Below are positions 5,636 through 30,429 of a stretch of 30,429 bases of DNA, piece by piece. Both the position numbers and the translations under genes were made by a program. The notes under the pieces are model-generated. The model was given only the letters and a program-made list of their open reading frames with translations. It was not told the origin of the DNA and did no database searches. Source of the DNA: a virus; the IMG/VR virus record IMGVR_UViG_3300035034_000860, positions 1 through 30,429 of that record, one strand, 5' to 3'. Position 1 is the stretch's first letter, and every line of letters starts with the position of its first letter.

Positions 5636-6850
5636 TTACCATCCAACGATTACTCTTGTTTGTAACATTTCTTCTTCTAACGAATATCTAAGGGCGTCAA
5701 TGGCGTGGTCGTTCGTTTTCTCAGGTTTATCAATTTCGTTTCCCTGTCTGTCTTTGCCCCATTGATAGCTTTCCAATTCCTTTATTAAATTAACACATCT
5801 TTCATTAATTAGTAACGTTTTATTTTGGATAAACTTTATCCCTGCAATGACTGAACCTTGCCCCTTCTTAACTCCGATTGCCTGGATTGCCAATCCTTTC
5901 AGTTGCGTTATTGTTCGAGGGTCCTCAGAGTCGCACCAAACGACTTCATCTTTTGCAAATTCTCTTAACTGCTCGGCTAACCTGTCAGTTGTCAACTTCG
6001 TTTCATAAATTTCATCGTCAACATAAATTGTTGAATCGTTTGAAAATGTCCGAACGGTTGCACTTGGATTTGTCCAGCCAAAGTCTTGCCCGTAGCTTGC
6101 CCGTACTCCTCGCAGCGTTTCAGGTCTTTCTTTAACGACAGTATACTTAAAAATAACTCCAGCAAGCACCCCCCAATTACCGAGATAATAAACGCTGTAC
6201 ATATATTCAGATTGATTTTTATAATTCTCATAACGTTCTTTATCCGTATCAGATAAAAATCTATTGTCTAAACAGGTCGTGTGGTGAGCATAGACGTCAT
6301 ATTTATCCCCGTCAAAGAATGTCTTTTTAATCCAGTGATTTTGATGGATTGGATTAAGTCTTAAAAATAGACGGCGTGGAAGGTTAGACTCTCCTCTCTG
6401 GCGTGTATCGATAATCATAAAGTCTTCAAATGTTATCTCTGTCGCTTCTTCGATGTGAATATCGTTGAACATTCCTTTGGGTGGTGTTATTGATTTCAGC
6501 TTCTCAGGGTCGTCACATCCGACAAAATAAGCGACCGCCCCATTGATGCACTTTATTGTCATATCGGAGCGGTTAACGGCAAAGTATTTATTTAGGTTAA
6601 GTTGCCACATTGCCTTTTGAACTTCGTTAAATACAGACCTTTTAAGCGTTCTTGCTATCTTACGAACAATTAATTGATTACGTCCGTTCATCATCGATAA
6701 AACGATTATCTGAGAAGACGAGACAGACTTGCCGCTTCCAGCTCCTCCGTACATTATAATAATTCGCTTGTCATAATAACTAACAAGGTCATAGAACTTT
6801 TTATTAAATACGGTCTTGAGACCTTTAAGATTTATCTTTATTGTTCTCAT
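5636..6850 (-). CDS. terL: Terminase large subunit (TerL)
   Basis: The 404-residue packaging motor shows a Walker A motif GGAGSGKS at residues 35-42 and a Walker B region DIHIEEATE around 130-138. RNase H-like nuclease acidic residues are D256 (GQDFGW), D307 (CDSED) and D385 (HAIDAL). Length and order match Terminase_3/Terminase_3C. The N-terminal ATPase drives DNA into the head and the C-terminal nuclease cuts the concatemer. It overlaps the terS gene by 26 bases, suggesting coupled translation. All catalytic residues expected for the family appear intact. Confidence 0.95.
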   Translation of the reverse strand: MRTIKINLKGLKTVFNKKFYDLVSYYDKRIIIMYGGAGSGKSVSSSQIIVLSMMNGRNQLIVRKIARTLKRSVFNEVQKAMWQLNLNKYFAVNRSDMTIKCINGAVAYFVGCDDPEKLKSITPPKGMFNDIHIEEATEITFEDFMIIDTRQRGESNLPRRLFLRLNPIHQNHWIKKTFFDGDKYDVYAHHTTCLDNRFLSDTDKERYENYKNQSEYMYSVYYLGNWGVLAGVIFKYTVVKERPETLRGVRASYGQDFGWTNPSATVRTFSNDSTIYVDDEIYETKLTTDRLAEQLREFAKDEVVWCDSEDPRTITQLKGLAIQAIGVKKGQGSVIAGIKFIQNKTLLINERCVNLIKELESYQWGKDRQGNEIDKPEKTNDHAIDALRYSLEEEMLQTRVIVGW

Positions 6851-7331
6851 TATCTTCTATTGTTAGGTCAATGTTGACCTCAAGCTCTTCTGCCCCGACA
6901 TTATAGCCGTTATTTGACCAACGCTCAGGCATTCTGTTATTCAAGGTGTAGATGATTGCAGCAACGGAAGGGTCGACAGTAACGGTCTTAATTGTTTTTT
7001 CTCTTATTTGCGGTTTAGAGTTCCCGTTCTTATCTGGAGCGCCCGGAATGAGCTTAGTTGTTTCTTGTGTATATGTATAACCTGCGATCAGTTTCATTAG
7101 CGAGGATTCAGCAGTCAGACACATAAAATCATCAGAGTTGTCCTTGCCTCTTTTGTAAGCCTCATTGAATTCATCAGATTCTTTTAGCCAACGATAAAAG
7201 GTGTTGTAAGAGATTTTGAGCTTTTTATAAACGCTTTTATCGGTGCAGCCCTGCCGTTTCATATATTCGACAACGGTCAGCATCTCAGGCTTAAATTTAC
7301 TAACTGCACCACGCGTCTTTTTTATATACAT
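6825..7331 (-). CDS. terS: Terminase small subunit (TerS)
   Basis: The 168-residue protein has an N-terminal helix-turn-helix (RQGCTDKSVYKKLKISYNTF, about residues 30-49), used to recognise the packaging site. A central helical segment LMKLIAGYTYTQETTK follows, then the characteristic TVTVDPSVAAIIYTLNNRMP ending in ERW. The acidic tail is the likely contact with TerL. It lies directly upstream of, and overlapping, terL. The N-terminal 4 residues overlap the preceding gene's end. Confidence 0.88.
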   Translation of the reverse strand: MYIKKTRGAVSKFKPEMLTVVEYMKRQGCTDKSVYKKLKISYNTFYRWLKESDEFNEAYKRGKDNSDDFMCLTAESSLMKLIAGYTYTQETTKLIPGAPDKNGNSKPQIREKTIKTVTVDPSVAAIIYTLNNRMPERWSNNGYNVGAEELEVNIDLTIEDNENNKDKS

Positions 7332-7957
7332 TTATCACCACGCCTTACGAGGTCGTCCATCCAATCTTTATGAAAGTCATAAATAAGTTTATTATTGTCA
7401 TAGACAAACTGCTCTATCCTGGAGTTGATTGTCATATTTCCACTTCCTTCAAAAATGAAATAATCGTTTTTTTTTGTTTTGCAACAGCAAACTTTCGCGT
7501 GAACATTGACATAAACGTGTTGTGTGCTATCATTTTTGGAGCAAAAGTCACGTAGTTTTTTGGCCCAAATTTCAGGCCTTTTGGTCTGATGGAAAAAGTC
7601 AGAGATTACGAACGTTGCTTTTTTTATTCTTCCAGCTTTTATGAAATCGGTTATTGATTCGACGGTTGGCTGATTGATTCTGAATAGTGCAAGGTACATC
7701 TCTTCAATGTCGGTCTCTTCAAGTATTTGCAAAATAAGCGCGTAGGCGTTAAATTGTTTTTGTGTGATAATCCGAAATTGTTCGTTAGGTTTAGGTTTTT
7801 TGCAGAGGTCAGAAAGTGTCCTTGCTTTTATCAAGTGTATTTCATTGTTTTTTATTATTCTTTTTATTGCATTTTGTTTGACGAGGTCAGCGTTGATGTT
7901 TTCTTCAATAAGCCCGCCCCATTCTGCATTTTCCCAATCAATTTTATTTGTGTTCAT
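7322..7957 (-). CDS. PLD-like (HKD motif) protein
   Basis: The 211-residue protein carries one HKD-type motif near the C-terminus: H153, K155, D165 and GSGN at 171-174, with E182 downstream. The spacing is H-x-K-x9-D-x5-GSGN. The phospholipase D superfamily includes nucleases such as Nuc and BfiI that use one motif per monomer and dimerise, so a nuclease or DNA-binding role is plausible, but the N-terminal 140 residues are not recognised. Three adjacent cysteines (157-159) follow the HAK element. The gene starts 1 base before the methyltransferase stop and ends overlapping terS, so it is co-expressed with the packaging genes. Confidence 0.6.
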   Translation of the reverse strand: MNTNKIDWENAEWGGLIEENINADLVKQNAIKRIIKNNEIHLIKARTLSDLCKKPKPNEQFRIITQKQFNAYALILQILEETDIEEMYLALFRINQPTVESITDFIKAGRIKKATFVISDFFHQTKRPEIWAKKLRDFCSKNDSTQHVYVNVHAKVCCCKTKKNDYFIFEGSGNMTINSRIEQFVYDNNKLIYDFHKDWMDDLVRRGDKCI

Positions 7958-9441
7958 TAGAGTTTTATAATCTCAATTTCATCATCGAGTTTTTGCATTC
8001 TGTCGAGAATTACCTGACAATATTTTTCGTCAAGTTCGAGACCGTAACATTTTCTATCAAGCTGGTGACTAGCGACCATTGTCGAACCTGAACCAAGAAA
8101 GAAGTCAATAACCAACCCGCTATCTGGACAGCTTGATTTAATAACCCTTTCACAAAGAGGGAGTGGTTTTATTGTTAAGTGATTACCTTCATCTCCTTGT
8201 TTTACGTGTGAATTAAATTGCCATACACTATTAAAGTTGTCGTGAATATTATTAAAATAAGCTCTTGTTTTATAGTATTCTTTTTTGATTTCATCGTGCT
8301 CTTTTTTGATTTCATCGTAATCTTTTTTGATTTCATCGTAATCTTTGCCAAAGGCTTTATAATCTTTGCCAAAGGCTTGTAGTTTTCGATAATTTTCTTC
8401 TGTTGGAAAATTCCATTGACTTTTTGTGAAGTAATGTTTGCCCATATGATTCCCGAGTGATGCTTTCCAATTTTTTCTATCACCACACTTCTTCATCTCA
8501 TTGTCTAAATAACTTCTTATTGGTTCAAACCCCTCAAAATAATTGTTATTGTTAAACCCTTGAACCCCCATCATAATAAAAAGACATTTCTCGTCTGCTC
8601 TTGCGTAGCTTCTCCAAGATTCCTCCTTTTGCCCATGAGCACGAGGCTTTACCCACGTTATTAAATTTCTAAACGTTATTTTATTGACTTTTACTAATGG
8701 TTTTAAAATTTCTGAGTAAATGTCCATTAATGGCTCATCATTTCCCCAGCAATACCAACTCCCATTATCTTTCAAATACTCTAGTTGAAGGCTAATCCAA
8801 ATTTTATTGAACTTCAATAAATCACCATAATTTAAACTATCGTTTTCAAAGTTTTTCTTCATCCCGTAAGGGGGGTCGTTATGGGCAAGGTCTGCCAATT
8901 TGCCGTTCATAAGTCTTTCAACGTTTTCTTTTTTTGTTGAGTCTCCACAAAGCAGCCGATGAAGTTCTACGCCGTTTTTTTGAAGAGAGAACAAATCACC
9001 GACCTTTATATCTGTTTCAATTTCATCAGGTTCTTCGTAGTCATCATCTTCTACCGTCTTCGCTTTTTCATCTTGTTTGAAGTCCTCGATCTCAAGCCCC
9101 CAACTTTCAAGGTCAGGTAATTCAAAGTTCAATAATAATAGTTCTCCATCCCAATTTCCACTGGAGACGTTATCTTGAATAATAAAACGCTTCTTTTCTT
9201 CTTCTGTTAAGTTCTCCGCTTTTATCACCCAGTTTTTAGGTATCTTAGACATTCCGAGCCGCTTTATTGCTGTTAGCCGCATATTGCCACCTATGACCAT
9301 ATTATTGCTGTCTATTACAATCGGCCTAAGCTCCATCATCTTTGAAAAGTCTTTTATGGATTGTTTGAGCTTTTCAATTTGTGTTTCGTTTATGGTACGG
9401 GGATTATTCGGATTAAGTTTGAGCTTGTCAACTTCAATCAT
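7957..9441 (-). CDS. ParB-like nuclease domain fused to DNA methyltransferase (N4-C/N6-A)
   Basis: This 494-residue fusion starts with a ParB/sulfiredoxin-like domain at about residues 1-120, including RPIVIDSNNMVIGGNMRLTA. An acidic linker follows (about 127-145), then a class-beta amino-methyltransferase with catalytic DPPYG at 189-193. SAM-binding DFFLGSGST lies C-terminally at 446-454. A coiled heptad insert at about 352-387 (units like DEIKKDY) sits between the two motifs, in the region expected for target recognition. No cognate restriction gene is seen. Such enzymes in phages usually protect DNA from host restriction or mark packaging substrate. It overlaps the upstream small gene by 3 bases. 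Confidence 0.9.
   Translation of the reverse strand: MIEVDKLKLNPNNPRTINETQIEKLKQSIKDFSKMMELRPIVIDSNNMVIGGNMRLTAIKRLGMSKIPKNWVIKAENLTEEEKKRFIIQDNVSSGNWDGELLLLNFELPDLESWGLEIEDFKQDEKAKTVEDDDYEEPDEIETDIKVGDLFSLQKNGVELHRLLCGDSTKKENVERLMNGKLADLAHNDPPYGMKKNFENDSLNYGDLLKFNKIWISLQLEYLKDNGSWYCWGNDEPLMDIYSEILKPLVKVNKITFRNLITWVKPRAHGQKEESWRSYARADEKCLFIMMGVQGFNNNNYFEGFEPIRSYLDNEMKKCGDRKNWKASLGNHMGKHYFTKSQWNFPTEENYRKLQAFGKDYKAFGKDYDEIKKDYDEIKKEHDEIKKEYYKTRAYFNNIHDNFNSVWQFNSHVKQGDEGNHLTIKPLPLCERVIKSSCPDSGLVIDFFLGSGSTMVASHQLDRKCYGLELDEKYCQVILDRMQKLDDEIEIIKL
8281..8385 (-). repeat. Five 21-bp tandem units in the methyltransferase gene
   Basis: Three near-identical units (TTTTTTGATTTCATCGT plus 4 bases) at 8281, 8302 and 8323 are followed by two units of a second type (TTTGCCAAAGGCTT) at 8344 and 8365. 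Each unit is 21 bp and encodes seven residues, so copy-number change keeps frame. The coded product is a charged coiled-coil heptad array. Confidence 0.9.
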
Positions 9442-9599
9442 TTTGCTTCTGCCTTCCTGATTTCGTCAATTATTTCAGACAAATCTAAGACAAGAGAGTT
9501 AATCATCCAGTCTGGGATTGTGTCCTGATTGTCTCTTCTGAATATAATTAATTTTTGTAATTCGTTTTCAAGTGAAACAACAATCTTCAATAAACTCAT
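9438..9599 (-). CDS. Small protein, first gene of the leftward unit
   Basis: This 53-residue reading frame, MSLLKIVVSLENELQKLII at its start and ending RKAEAK, has an ATG preceded by GGAGG at 6 bases. Its TGA overlaps the ATG of the methyltransferase gene (ATGA arrangement), which supports real translation. It is mostly amphipathic helix with a DWMINSLV segment. It is the first gene after the leftward promoter. No family is recognised. Confidence 0.7.
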   Translation of the reverse strand: MSLLKIVVSLENELQKLIIFRRDNQDTIPDWMINSLVLDLSEIIDEIRKAEAK

Positions 9600-9787: not shown

Positions 9788-9816
9788 TTGACAGGGAACA
9801 CGGGTTGTTATATAGT
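9788..9816 (+). promoter_or_regulatory. Rightward (early unit) sigma70-type promoter
   Basis: TTGACA at 9788-9793 is followed after 17 bases by TATAGT at 9811-9816. The predicted transcription start is only about 20 bases ahead of the first gene's ATG at 9845, leaving a short leader that contains the AGGAGGAAGG ribosome binding site. It is back to back with the leftward promoter. Confidence 0.8.
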
Positions 9817-10816: not shown

Positions 10817-11014
10817 ATGGAAAAGAAAAACGATAAGATAGTAATGGGACAACTTTTGACCGTCAAAGATGTTGCGGTTATGATGGGGATTAGCTGCGGA
10901 CAGATATATGCTTTAGTCCGAGCTAAGCAGTTGCCAGCTGTAAAGATTGGTTCTTTGGTAAGATTTGACCGAAACGTATTGACAGAGTGGATTAAAGCAA
11001 ACTCGGGGGAATAA
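10817..11014 (+). CDS. Helix-turn-helix DNA-binding protein (excisionase/MerR-like, HTH_17)
   Basis: The 65-residue protein is almost entirely a winged-helix HTH_17 domain. LLTVKDVAVMMGISCGQIYA is the HTH, followed by LVRAKQLPAVKIGSLVRF (wing) and an ending D-x-x-x-LTEWIKANS. Such domains act as excisionases, but there is no integrase here, so a transcription or replication regulator is more likely. The start has AGGAGGAAAGAAGGAA directly upstream. Its stop overlaps the start of the initiator gene, so the two are coupled. It could bind the iterons in that gene or the control region at 9668-9787. Confidence 0.85.
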   Translation: MEKKNDKIVMGQLLTVKDVAVMMGISCGQIYALVRAKQLPAVKIGSLVRFDRNVLTEWIKANSGE

Positions 11015-11847
11015 TGGCAAACGGCAAGAGTTGCTTATATTTCCCTCACGACTATTCAGCAAGAAACGACCCAAAAATCCAGAGAATGAAATCAAAGATT
11101 GGATTAGTTTCTTACGCTATTTATTGGGAAATAGTTGAGTGTTTGTATGAAAATAATAATAACCTACCCACAGACTATGAACAACTTGCATATACAATAA
11201 GAGCAGAAGTAGCAGCAGTAACAGCAGTAATAGAGGACTTCAATTTGTTCACGATAGACGAAGAAGCTGGAACTTTTAGCAGCAACTCTGTTGCAAGGAG
11301 ACTTAGTATAAGGGAGGAGAGGTCAACTAAAGCCAAGAAATCTATTCTGGCAAGATGGGATAAAACGAAATACGAACGTAATACGAACGTAATACGACCG
11401 AATAACGAACGTAATACGAATGTAATACGAACGAAATACGAACGTAATACTATAAAAGAAAAGGAAAGAAAAGAAAAGGAAAGAAAAGAAAAGGAAATCT
11501 ATAAAGAAAAAGAAGCGAGCAACGGAAAAGTTGTTGCTCGCCCATGTGATGAAAACTTAATAAATTATCTTAATGAGATTTCAGGTAAGAACTACAAGTT
11601 AACATCATTGATAAAAACTTCAATAAAATCTCGGATAGATGAAGGATTTACAATCGAGCAAATGAGAGAAGCATGTAAACGACAAGTCAATAACTGCAAG
11701 GGAGACGCCAAAACTGAGACATATATGCACCCATCAACGATTTTTAGGAATGCAACAAATCTTGATAGGTGCTTGAACTTACCTATCGGTAAAAACAAAA
11801 CTGGAAGCTTAGACATCGCAGAAGACGACCCGCTTTTTGATCTGTAG
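11014..11847 (+). CDS. Replication initiator/replisome organiser (Lin1244/DnaD-like)
   Basis: The 277-residue protein has three parts. Residues about 1-100 (YFPHDYSARNDPKIQRMKSK, SYAIYWEIVECLYE) match the Lin1244/Lin1753-like N-terminal domain of phage replication proteins. Residues about 115-170 are a low-complexity K/E/R/N linker. Residues about 172-262 (LINYLNEISGKNYKLT, then EGFTIEQMREACKRQV, then MHPSTIFR) match the conserved C-terminal domain found next to DnaD-like proteins. The linker DNA carries seven 11-bp iterons, as in lambda O where the origin lies within the initiator gene. The downstream gene encodes the helicase loader. It overlaps the HTH gene by 1 base. Confidence 0.85.
   Translation: MANGKSCLYFPHDYSARNDPKIQRMKSKIGLVSYAIYWEIVECLYENNNNLPTDYEQLAYTIRAEVAAVTAVIEDFNLFTIDEEAGTFSSNSVARRLSIREERSTKAKKSILARWDKTKYERNTNVIRPNNERNTNVIRTKYERNTIKEKERKEKERKEKEIYKEKEASNGKVVARPCDENLINYLNEISGKNYKLTSLIKTSIKSRIDEGFTIEQMREACKRQVNNCKGDAKTETYMHPSTIFRNATNLDRCLNLPIGKNKTGSLDIAEDDPLFDL
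11370..11446. repeat. Seven 11-bp iterons, candidate replication origin
   Basis: Copies of ATACGAACGTA begin at 11370, 11381, 11392, 11402, 11414, 11425 and 11436; the third, fourth and fifth are variants and the fourth has an extra A. The period of 11 bp places each copy on the same face of the helix. They lie in the linker-coding part of the initiator gene. Confidence 0.8.
11451..11514 (+). other. A-rich polypurine tract next to the iterons
   Basis: From about 11454 to 11498 the plus strand is purine only, built of repeated AAAAGGAAAGAA-type units, flanked by TATAAAAG and TCTATAAAG. AT-rich, strand-asymmetric DNA beside iterons is typical of a DNA unwinding element. It codes for a lysine/glutamate linker. 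Confidence 0.6.
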
Positions 11848-25700: not shown

Positions 25701-25791
25701 CAATTTCGCTAAAGTCTATTTCAATTATGTCTGCTGCTGCTAAGGTATAAGCTAACTCATCAGCAAAATTATAAAACTTAACGCTATACAT
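22738..25791 (-). CDS. Large baseplate/tail-tip protein with Ig-like and chitobiase-C repeats
   Basis: The 1017-residue protein follows the tape measure gene directly, so it probably forms the tail tip (distal tail/Tal/receptor-binding functions combined). Residues 1-550 are unrecognised, with beta-rich sequence typical of baseplate hubs. At about 555-640 lies a carboxypeptidase-regulatory-like domain (VSVTIIINNVIYSYGTDENG, then FINVPISSIPYQYNISKDGY). Two CHB_HEX_C_1-type modules follow, marked by YYTTDGEDV (about 664-672) and RYTTDGSEPDEDSPIYSEPI (about 793-812). The C-terminal 150 residues are another beta domain. Such add-on modules commonly bind glycans. Confidence 0.75.
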   Translation of the reverse strand: MYSVKFYNFADELAYTLAAADIIEIDFSEIEIESEKSFFRTPQRATINCIATEWITDNIVKMPLSNVVDRSLCKYKALIYSDAALVATMIILNDQLNNSIDLGAATIVCYDYTKMLELYDELSFDNLGAAKIYWLKTSGDVDGSVKLFLDKIGTVSGLPLTSTQEAATAQQNVSSEQFLLINSNEDETLSTLTDADNKAINPDYLIDEFIYDEVGLLGEVIRVGWNPNIPSTSLNYQDFVVLHLAIFEAYLSTATYSVVKSKWDVRPKYMAKMRVEVWRPNNITAWSKVSREDFVTDWAYISPSHVSTARPTFSQAFPNIWGLDEEEKTTDSWISLIRQFKLYALNTTSGNFSKFGANPIFKKAIDLPVPYSGSYSVGLINYLNITLAELSELKIRRTGTILPHAVTLSQRTVNHLALIKEQLYISRQQLYASYDGTIRVVNIIPDAIGVQIPITDANIIYLSTTIMGIGAKSDYNVNQIAGDNTSYLSNKLSLNYKTYQNRREIELDAIDLGSTPELFNNYLIKNEFLTYLKSFKPNYESNVHTLKLGVLDIATIEFTVTYGGIYAIKDVSVTIIINNVIYSYGTDENGKCRFINVPISSIPYQYNISKDGYTLIEDTILVDEIDDYEVTKVIVDTKPTEPEIKLRSLITGMIEVELIQAEGQKIYYTTDGEDVTTEEENYQLYIDGIADAVIIDTTSVDDIISALMTLDLWGISGNNQGNLYTTPFLLNATKTVKARAYSVIGVYSTSTLSEEVEVGTVSVLTPKIRKVFIDDSQEVSVVIDKPEISGAIVRYTTDGSEPDEDSPIYSEPIFLTKKLEAEKIRAKTFFNSVESDEVAYQRSDEVIIQEGEVDFASSSDLFEQTFENGIHHFRVTIQTFVDHTQTSPARRVIIGMAHLFDVATFQLPNYGLFYRITADEPTAPVGAVVVTDVATHIPNVLREDVIRKGPPTNVIQFDYSLSTSAGLVAGLADESILRINIVALSQPLWAGFCPMLADIEMMTLKYKIKVEPCSLIP

Positions 25792-28124
25792 TAGAAGCCA
25801 CCTCTAATTGATTCGCCGATTTTATTCGCTCGGTTTATTTCTGTTGGAGAAATCTTGTTTTGAATTGTTAAGATTGGAGAGAACTCCTTTGCCTGTAAGA
25901 TACTCGCAATCAGGGAAAGTTTATTTGACAGTCCAGAGAAACCTCCAACATCAACACTCGCACCGCTATTTATTGAGTTCAGAAGCGGCAGATTTTGAGC
26001 TGTAGCCGCTCTATTGACAACATACTCTCCTCTTGTAAGGTTCGCTAAAACGCTGTCTCTATTGGCAGAAACCCCCTCCGAAATGATGCCACCTGTCGCA
26101 TAACCTTTGACTTTCCCACCTTTATTGTGTCCTTGAACTTCACCGCCTTCATTGAATCCGAATAGCTTTGTTATTGTACCGAATATCCCAACAACTGCCT
26201 TCTTTATTGCCATCCTGATGAGGTCTTGTATGATTGCGTTAGTCATCTTGCGAAATGCACTTTGAAGATTATCAGCTTGGATGATTGAGTCTGATATTGA
26301 ACCAGCAATAGAGTTGGTAATACTTTCTCCAACCTCTGAGTAAAGCCCTTCAATCTTAGCGACCGTTACTTTTGTAGATTGTTCTTGTTGATATAATGCT
26401 AATTGATATTCTCTGCCGACCTCTCCGTGAATGCTTGAAACTTTCCAAAGATATTCCTCCCAAGCTTTTGCAATATTTTCAGGTGTAGACATTCCTATCC
26501 TAGCAAATTCGTTTTCTGCTGCTGTGACAGACTCAATCCGTTTGCGAAGCTTTTCTAATGTAGCTTGTCTGATACTTTCTCCAACCTCTGAGTAAAGCCC
26601 TTCAATCTTAGCGACCGTTACTTTTGTAGATTGTTCTTGTTGATATAATGCTAATTGATATTCTCTGCTGACCTCTCCGTGAATGCCTGAAACTTTCAAA
26701 AGATATTCCTCCCAAGCTTTTGCAATATTTTCAGGTGTAGACATTCCTACCTTAGCAAATTCGTTTTCTGCTGCTGTGACAGACTCAATCCGTTTGCGAA
26801 GCTCTTCTAATGTAGCTTGTCTGATAATTTCAAAATGTAATAAATCTTCTTCTGCTGCTGCTAATCGTTCCGTTTCTTTTGTCGCTACCTTGACTTGCTC
26901 CGTGTTGCCTTTCCCCGCTGATGTACTTTTCTCTATTGCGTTTCGTAGTGCCCCTAGTCCAACTTCATATTTATAAGTCTTGGCAGTCGTTCCAGTCATC
27001 GCATTCGCGAACTCTCCCCAAACGCTGACAACCTTCTGCTTGAAATAATCAAGAGACTTCGCCATCCCTGGGAATAGCCTTGTCCAGCCTGTAAGAGCAT
27101 CAAAAAGCAACTCGAACCCTAATAAAATAGCTTTTACTGTATTTATCCCTAATGATTTCAACATTTCAAACAGGAAAATTAACGCAGCGTATAAGCCCTT
27201 AACTGTTTTATCTGCACCTTTAAGAGATTCAAATTGCGCAACCATTGCCTTCAGCTCTTCTTCAAGCTGCTCTGTTGACAATTCACCTAAAGTCTCTTGA
27301 ACGTCTCCAATTGAAACGTTGAGAGCATTAAAGTAACCAACGGCATCTTTAATGAACGGTATCATTTTGCTTGCTGCCCCGTCTGTTGACCTGACTAAAC
27401 CAATGCCTAATTCTTCCTTGAGGTCTCCGAAGAGGTTTTTAAGTTGGATAGACGGTTCAATCATATGAGCGGCAGCGTTTGCAAATTTGCCTTCAACGGT
27501 GTCTAAAATAATCGCTTGAGCTTTTGCAAGTTGGTTCGTTTCTGAAAAGTTCTTTATCATCTCTTGCTGCGTGTCAGTAAATACAATCCCTACCCGTCTA
27601 AGTCTGGTAAGCCCTTCAACGGGAGATTCTAAAGCTATTCCCAAGACTGCCGTTGCTGAAGAGAGCCCCCCCGTAACAGTCGCCATATCAACTACGTTCT
27701 TAATCGCTCTCTTGAAGGTTTCACCTGTTACGTTCTGGAACTTGAGCATTGATGACATTGCCTCTTTCATTATCTCTTCATCACCATAATTCGAGACCGC
27801 TTGAAGCTCTCCAGCCATTCGTTGAAGCTGACTAGCTGTAAATCCTGCTGCTCCACCTGTTGCATTGACTTGAGCTTCTAATAGCCTAAATGAACGCTCT
27901 TGATTTCTTGCAAATTGTTCAAGGTCTTTCATTATATCAAACGCCTTCTTCATAGCAAACAGTCCAGCTGCAACGCCTGCAATAGCCCCCGCTATTTTAG
28001 CAAAGCCTTGCGACATTTTAGAAGCTGATGACTCAGCTTTCCTTACCGATTTATCAAGCTCTCTGTCAAATTTGCCTGTCTTTGCATCGATTTCAGCGTA
28101 TAATGTCCCAATGTTTTCTGCCAT
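25791..28124 (-). CDS. Tail tape measure protein
   Basis: The 777-residue protein begins like other tape measures (IGTLYAEIDAKTGKFDRELD, coiled coil, then FAKIAGAIAGVAAGLFAMKK). It has hydrophobic segments in the middle (LIFLFEMLKSL and AILLGFELLF). It ends with the typical EGGEVQGHNKGGKVKGYATG and SANRDSVLANLTRGEYVVNR region. It sets tail length and is ejected into the host at infection. Residues about 434-601 consist of two nearly identical 84-residue repeats. It overlaps the baseplate gene by 1 base and follows the tail chaperones. Confidence 0.93.
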   Translation of the reverse strand: MAENIGTLYAEIDAKTGKFDRELDKSVRKAESSASKMSQGFAKIAGAIAGVAAGLFAMKKAFDIMKDLEQFARNQERSFRLLEAQVNATGGAAGFTASQLQRMAGELQAVSNYGDEEIMKEAMSSMLKFQNVTGETFKRAIKNVVDMATVTGGLSSATAVLGIALESPVEGLTRLRRVGIVFTDTQQEMIKNFSETNQLAKAQAIILDTVEGKFANAAAHMIEPSIQLKNLFGDLKEELGIGLVRSTDGAASKMIPFIKDAVGYFNALNVSIGDVQETLGELSTEQLEEELKAMVAQFESLKGADKTVKGLYAALIFLFEMLKSLGINTVKAILLGFELLFDALTGWTRLFPGMAKSLDYFKQKVVSVWGEFANAMTGTTAKTYKYEVGLGALRNAIEKSTSAGKGNTEQVKVATKETERLAAAEEDLLHFEIIRQATLEELRKRIESVTAAENEFAKVGMSTPENIAKAWEEYLLKVSGIHGEVSREYQLALYQQEQSTKVTVAKIEGLYSEVGESIRQATLEKLRKRIESVTAAENEFARIGMSTPENIAKAWEEYLWKVSSIHGEVGREYQLALYQQEQSTKVTVAKIEGLYSEVGESITNSIAGSISDSIIQADNLQSAFRKMTNAIIQDLIRMAIKKAVVGIFGTITKLFGFNEGGEVQGHNKGGKVKGYATGGIISEGVSANRDSVLANLTRGEYVVNRAATAQNLPLLNSINSGASVDVGGFSGLSNKLSLIASILQAKEFSPILTIQNKISPTEINRANKIGESIRGGF
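26321..26824 (-). repeat. Tandem 252-bp direct duplication in the tape measure gene
   Basis: 26321-26572 and 26573-26824 differ at only about 6 positions by eye. Each encodes 84 residues (for example ESVTAAENEFA and EVGESI), so reading frame is kept. The near identity points to a recent duplication. Confidence 0.92.
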
Positions 28125-30177: not shown

Positions 30178-30429
30178 GTATCCTCCTACAATATGCCTTA
30201 TAATGCGAGATTGAAACGTCATTAATTCCCTTGAAATAGTCCACGCTTAAGACTGAGTATTCGATTGAATTATGCTTAATCGTGTCTGTTGCTATTAGTT
30301 CCGTTTTGCAATACACAACATTAGTGACCTCTTTTTGAAGCTGTTCGTTTTGAAAGACGTCAGTTGTTTTACGAGAATCTATCTTTGCAGCGTGTGTCGT
30401 TCCTTGTTTCGTTCTCGCAATTTTGAAAC
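30170..30429 (-). CDS. Head-closure/stopper protein, C-terminal part (starts at position 84)
   Basis: This is the rest of the 109-residue protein that starts at 84 and runs through 1 to 30415 on the circular map (bases 30416-30429 duplicate 1-14). It reads RTKQGTTHAAKIDSRKTTDV, then TELIATDTIKHNSIEYSVLS, and ends YKAYCRRILD. The beta-rich composition and size fit the SPP1 gp16 stopper. Its stop overlaps the TTG start of the tail terminator gene by 8 bases. Confidence 0.75.
   Translation of the reverse strand, partial: FKIARTKQGTTHAAKIDSRKTTDVFQNEQLQKEVTNVVYCKTELIATDTIKHNSIEYSVLSVDYFKGINDVSISHYKAYCRRILD
30416..30429. repeat. Terminal direct repeat (right copy)
   Basis: This copy is identical to 1-14 and marks the circular overlap. 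Confidence 0.9.

Follow-up and report, generated by a model that had tools for sequence, protein, structure and literature searches.

A gene for a small PLD-like protein, lodged between a DNA methyltransferase gene and the gene for the terminase small subunit (TerS), raises the question of what such a protein contributes to a phage. The window analysed here spans an entire IMG/VR virus record (30,429 bp), and a first-pass annotation of its sequence had suggested that the protein might be either the nuclease half of a phage-carried modification/nuclease pair or a nuclease linked to packaging. Having compared its motif, predicted fold and gene neighbourhood with those of its relatives, we favour, with a probability of roughly 60%, a small single-motif PLD nuclease whose role lies in the processing of replicated phage DNA, either in preparation for packaging or in its course.

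The ORF is real and overlaps both of its neighbours, as had been described, sharing 10 nt with TerS and 1 nt with the methyltransferase gene directly upstream (Table 1). On the minus strand the genes run in the order 53-aa ORF, ParB/methyltransferase, PLD gene, TerS and terminase large subunit (TerL), and the early genes run in the opposite direction from approximately position 9788. A promoter-like sequence agreeing at 11 of 12 bases, and identified by consensus match only, is present at 9667-9639 on the minus strand.

Table 1. Genes of the minus-strand operon and conserved motifs of the PLD-like protein, in window coordinates.
Feature	Position	Strand	Evidence
53-aa ORF, head of the same operon	9438..9599	-	ORF
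ParB_N + N6_N4 DNA methyltransferase	7957..9441	-	PF01555 E=7e-32; phrog_498 E=2.4e-81
Single-HKD PLD-like protein	7322..7957	-	ORF, ATG start, 211 aa
H153-x-K155 catalytic motif	7493..7501	-	H 84/85, K 85/85
E170-G-S-G-N174 motif	7436..7450	-	E 83/85, S 85/85, N 85/85
E182-Q183, acidic E182 8 after N174	7409..7414	-	E 85/85, Q 83/85
Terminase small subunit TerS, directly downstream of the PLD gene	6825..7331	-	phrog_309 E=2.5e-27
Terminase large subunit TerL	5636..6850	-	Terminase_3 PF04466 E=9.9e-50; Terminase_3C PF17288 E=8.2e-21

A PLD fold with a degenerate HKD motif

When compared with PHROGs, the PLD protein matched phrog_20533, a family of unknown function, across residues 18-199 of its 211 aa (E=8.5e-22), as well as phrog_16945, which is annotated as 'endonuclease' (E=8.1e-7); direct Pfam matches were weak and those to NCBIfam unconvincing. 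Relatives were identified in Flavobacterium phages 6H, 1H, 2A, 23T, FPSV and laban6-1, in Bacteroides phage BT-TP2, where the protein is recorded as an endonuclease on a structural match, in Bacteroidales MAGs (four loci, by genome scan with closer alignment) and in many IMG/VR contigs. The known hosts of phages carrying the gene are mostly Bacteroidetes.

Sequence searches of the PDB returned no relative for either a single-protein or a profile query, and the fold assignment therefore draws on a predicted structure, weak matches to Pfam PLDc_2 and structural comparison with Foldseek and VIA-align. An AlphaFold2 model built on 34 aligned members displays a confident PLD alpha/beta fold (pLDDT 86.5, pTM 0.80), in agreement with the initial description of the protein as PLD-like; model confidence is low for the first 20 residues and for residues 174-177 beside the active site. 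Foldseek matches with E<0.001 are PLD-type folds, with a probability of 1.00 for PLD-fold chains. By VIA-align the best match is NucT (Z 13.0, 3.0 Å over 136 residues), followed by Nuc (Z 12.4, 3.1 Å over 131 residues), where rows within 1 Z unit of each other count as tied; SauUSI (Z 11.5), NgoAVII R (10.8), BfiI (8.9) and Zucchini score below these two. The PLD-fold matches cover residues 52-211, leaving a short helical N-terminus. Second place in the BFVD library of viral structures goes to a protein of Arthrobacter phage Galaxy called 'NucT-like nuclease' (gp53, phrog_16945), which is thus matched by fold as well as by the family HMM. PLDc_2 itself matches 10 of the 34 members, at best with 1.1e-7; its matches to laban6-1 gp033 and 6H gp22 fall short of its cut-off.

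Conservation was scored over 85 relatives, the window included, that remained after removing sequences more than 90% identical. K155, S172, N174 and E182 are invariant in this set, H153 and G171 (84/85 each) and E170 and Q183 (83/85 each) are nearly so, and F195 (82/85) and N70 (79/85) are also conserved. The sole relative without H153, L113, has a sequence that is frayed downstream of the motif. Neither finding that would have counted against the first-pass reading, a model lacking the PLD fold or a family conserved at residues other than H153/K155, was made. The resulting family signature is HxK(x)13-14-EGSGN(x)7-EQ(Y/F), with a gap of seven residues between N174 and E182 in 84 of the 85, and judged on these sequences its presence is far beyond chance. 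E182 may be the counterpart of the acidic residue whose hydrogen bond holds the catalytic His of Nuc.

The motif that had first drawn attention to the gene, H153-A-K155-x9-D165-x5-G171-S-G-N174, is present as written, and the spacing that had been called unusual proved to be so, the stretch from K to GS being 3-4 residues longer than in the canonical reference motif HxK(x)4D(x)6GSxN. The canonical Asp at K+5 is lost in 83 of the 85 relatives and retained in 2, the position being K, E, Q or R in nearly all. D165 had been read as a motif residue; its position holds N in 28, D in 12 and K in 10 of the 85. The run of Cys described next to the motif does adjoin it (C157-C158-C159), but is unconserved, with Cys at the three positions in 22, 13 and 11 of 85, and for want of conservation both D165 and the CCC are rejected as functional residues. 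By fold and core residues the protein is a member of the PLD (HKD) superfamily with a degenerate HKD motif that falls short of the full textbook form.

Among characterised proteins the closest likeness is to Nuc and NucT, which have in common with the window protein the fold (Z 12.4-13.0), one HxK...GSxN motif per chain and a similar core size. In contrast to these enzymes, the window family lacks the K+5 Asp, has the longer motif loop, carries the EGSGN and EQY signatures, and occurs in a phage terminase neighbourhood with no sequence-level PDB match; the window protein also has an N-terminal extension of ~50 residues with a helix at residues 23-51. The fold and chemistry are already known, and what is new is a packaging-linked branch of a known superfamily. 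Our searches of the open-access literature turned up no named branch of this kind, linked to packaging and degenerate in its HKD motif, and no paper on a PLD nuclease in phage packaging.

Linkage of the PLD gene to unrelated terminases

Gene neighbourhoods were counted for 84 non-redundant loci outside the window, of which 77 were informative and 7 lay on contigs that were too short. TerL starts no more than 3 kb downstream of the PLD gene in 63 of the 77 informative loci (median 904 bp) and is located upstream within 6 kb in 6 loci; it was not found in 8 of the 84. The next gene downstream is often a small terminase, matching phrog_309, 83, 606, 51 or 57, or GP3_package in L020. In over half of the loci this next gene overlaps the PLD gene or follows it after about 10 bp or less. 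The view that such a gene is foreign to a standard packaging module was therefore wrong, as a position just ahead of TerS/TerL is the usual place of the family, and the packaging-linked nuclease offered as an alternative in the first-pass annotation is supported by the same count.

The TerLs encoded downstream match the Terminase_6N, Terminase_3, TerL_ATPase/TerL_nuclease and GpA models, and form six or more groups that BLAST does not connect. Even in the subfamily to which the window protein belongs, PLD proteins that are 54-73% identical adjoin TerS/TerL pairs with no significant BLAST match. The PLD proteins of L006 and L007 are 73% identical (TerL E 0.018), those of L007 and L011 69% (TerL E 2.0), those of L006 and L011 64% (TerL E 0.42) and those of L006 and L008 63% (TerL E 0.98). 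The occurrence of similar PLD proteins beside unrelated terminases shows that the PLD gene is exchanged independently of the terminase, yet reaches the same slot.

The extent to which the gene is retained differs between lineages. In a Duneviridae-like TerL lineage from IMG/VR, comprising 80 loci of which 13 are on contigs that start too near TerL to be evaluated, the PLD gene is present 0.9-2.9 kb upstream of TerL in 67 of 67 evaluable loci, many of which are closely related and do not represent independent events. Cellulophaga phage Ingeline (L156, Ingeline_1), whose TerL is 45% identical to that of laban6-1, has no recognisable copy, and none was recognised in the more distant Porphyromonas phages (including L157, phage017a) and Leef phages examined. 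In a different, PBSX-like TerL set a copy was found in 1 of 47 evaluable loci. Some lineages thus conserve the PLD gene while others dispense with it, and it is not universally required.

Some family members are encoded elsewhere. At L017:4337-8267 and L116:4305-7064 a PLD relative is directly followed by a DnaG-like primase gene in the place of the terminase, and in L029, L130, L044 and L139 members lie near portal, capsid or tail genes. Galaxy gp53 is encoded in the replication region, after the SSB gene, whereas the window gene directly precedes the terminase genes. These members away from terminases suggest that the enzyme may process DNA more generally, with packaging as only one of its settings.

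Candidate roles of the PLD protein

PLD nucleases are homodimers with a shared active site and a phosphohistidine intermediate, and NucT is a cation-independent endonuclease that prefers ssDNA (PMC5714352). Were the window protein a packaging-linked nuclease, it would be expected to dimerise as Nuc and NucT do, such that two sets of H153, K155, N174 and E182 would compose one metal-independent active site in which H153 would attack the phosphodiester. It would be made from the late operon along with TerS and TerL, and might clear single-stranded, flapped or branched stretches of the concatemer that would stop the motor; alternatively, it might contribute a cut to the terminase reaction. The gene would then be a transferable cassette compatible with many unrelated terminases, and if the protein works with so many of them, DNA is a likelier target than one particular TerL. 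The number of different TerLs, together with the outlying relatives beside SSB and primase genes, favours the clearing of ssDNA, flaps or branches over a dedicated partnership with TerL. We put forward more tentatively the specific proposal that the cassette is terminase-independent, consisting of a degenerate-HKD PLD dimer that several unrelated TerS/TerL pairs could use and that would cut or clear concatemers.

Accessory packaging nucleases are known mainly as HNH proteins. Under the terminase-independent proposal, the PLD family would join the nuclease domain of TerL and HNH proteins as a third kind of nuclease associated with packaging, at times acting in series with the latter. Retention of the PLD slot while terminases are exchanged points to a general, little-studied DNA-processing need in packaging. 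The gene can be tested in the culturable Flavobacterium phages 6H and laban6-1 (Duneviridae), whose gp22 and gp033, respectively, are 29-30% identical to the window protein, have the same motifs and are encoded upstream of TerS/TerL; their records describe them only as hypothetical.

A broader function, in which the protein is a general late or recombination nuclease for flaps, ssDNA or junctions and lies beside the terminase only for co-expression, appears to us somewhat unlikely. It would suit the relatives next to the Galaxy SSB gene and the L017 and L116 primase genes, along with the ssDNA preference of NucT (PMC5714352), yet leaves the strong, repeated linkage to TerS/TerL in the face of terminase exchange poorly accounted for.

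The slot beside TerS/TerL is also that of packaging HNH genes such as HK97 gp74, and PF01844 (HNH) matches nothing in the window, which raises the idea that the PLD protein is a functional stand-in that occupies the HNH slot beside TerS and aids cos or pac cutting by the terminase. In vitro, gp74 is reported to stimulate TerL in cleaving cos, and of the two strands it may cut one (PMC9410871, PMC11331095); on that basis a second nuclease in series is conceivable. We nevertheless regard the stand-in role as distinctly unlikely, since the PLD gene pairs with many TerL groups and since tandem HNH and PLD genes ahead of the terminase in L010/L011, L094 and L152 indicate that the two are not simple alternatives. 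An HNH_2 protein is encoded directly upstream of the PLD gene at L010:7209-7604 and L011:569-964, and is also NinG/Rap-like in PHROGs (3.8e-6); in L094 and L152, which have an HK97-type TerL, HNH matches precede the PLD gene by ~0.6-1 kb and share its strand. These HNH calls were made by Pfam, a regex for HNH having found one case, and in the PBSX-like TerL set (A10) HNH is too rare for the set to serve as a good control for HNH linkage. Simple replacement of an HNH protein is accordingly weakened as an explanation by the tandem loci. The gp74 type resembles the PLD gene in being a small nuclease gene beside TerS/TerL, but its HNH fold and motif are unrelated to those of the PLD protein, and genes of both kinds co-occur in some genomes.

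That the protein has no catalytic activity and serves to bind DNA or as a scaffold with a PLD fold, akin to FAM83 or TrmBL2, is very improbable: the PLD folds of those proteins score Z 11-12.5 against the window model and the canonical HKD Asp is missing, but even members that have diverged widely keep the HxK, GSxN and E182 sets with little or no variation.

The weakest proposal, that the protein is the restriction half of a phage-borne BfiI-like pair with the adjacent methyltransferase, is rejected on neighbourhood and architecture despite the touching genes in the window and a PLD nuclease domain common to BfiI, NgoAVII R and SauUSI (Z 8.9 for BfiI and 10.8 for NgoAVII R), because only 6 of the 60 loci with enough upstream sequence have a ParB/methyltransferase like that of the window at a distance of up to ~2.5 kb, the family is linked to the terminase instead, and, unlike BfiI (a chain of 358 residues) and NgoAVII R, the 211-aa protein has no DNA-recognition domain, or room for one, and no conserved methyltransferase partner. 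PADLOC offers no restriction model that fits the protein, which as a candidate defence gene product likewise gave no convincing PADLOC match.

Further features of the record and related genomes

An exact 14-bp direct repeat, CGCAATTTTGAAAC, occupies positions 1-14 and 30416-30429 of the window, and a 114-codon minus-strand frame crosses the joint of the record ends once one copy of the repeat is removed. Judging from these two features, the record, although nominally linear, probably represents a complete genome or assembly closed into a circle.

Porphyromonas phage017a (L157), whose TerL is related, has a methyltransferase gene just upstream of its terminase genes. At L021:3602-5968, and in the same form in L022, TerL reaches 788 aa, a length well beyond that of its relatives. 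Matches to Hom_end and LAGLIDADG_3 occur in one member of the TerL set, and the L021 gene may hold an intein.

Several genes of the window contain internal repeats. The methyltransferase gene has in-frame 21-bp tandem repeats at 8268-8378, in 3.8 and 1.9 copies, that encode charged heptad-like units (DEIKKDY, AFGKDYK) between conserved parts of the protein. At 26320-26831 a 252-bp unit is duplicated in tandem with a 97% match, within a 777-aa tail gene (25791-28124) that is probably the tape measure. Lastly, an 11-bp unit is repeated 7.9 times at 11364-11450, within an ORF at 11014-11847, and gives rise to NERNTNVIR-type peptide repeats.
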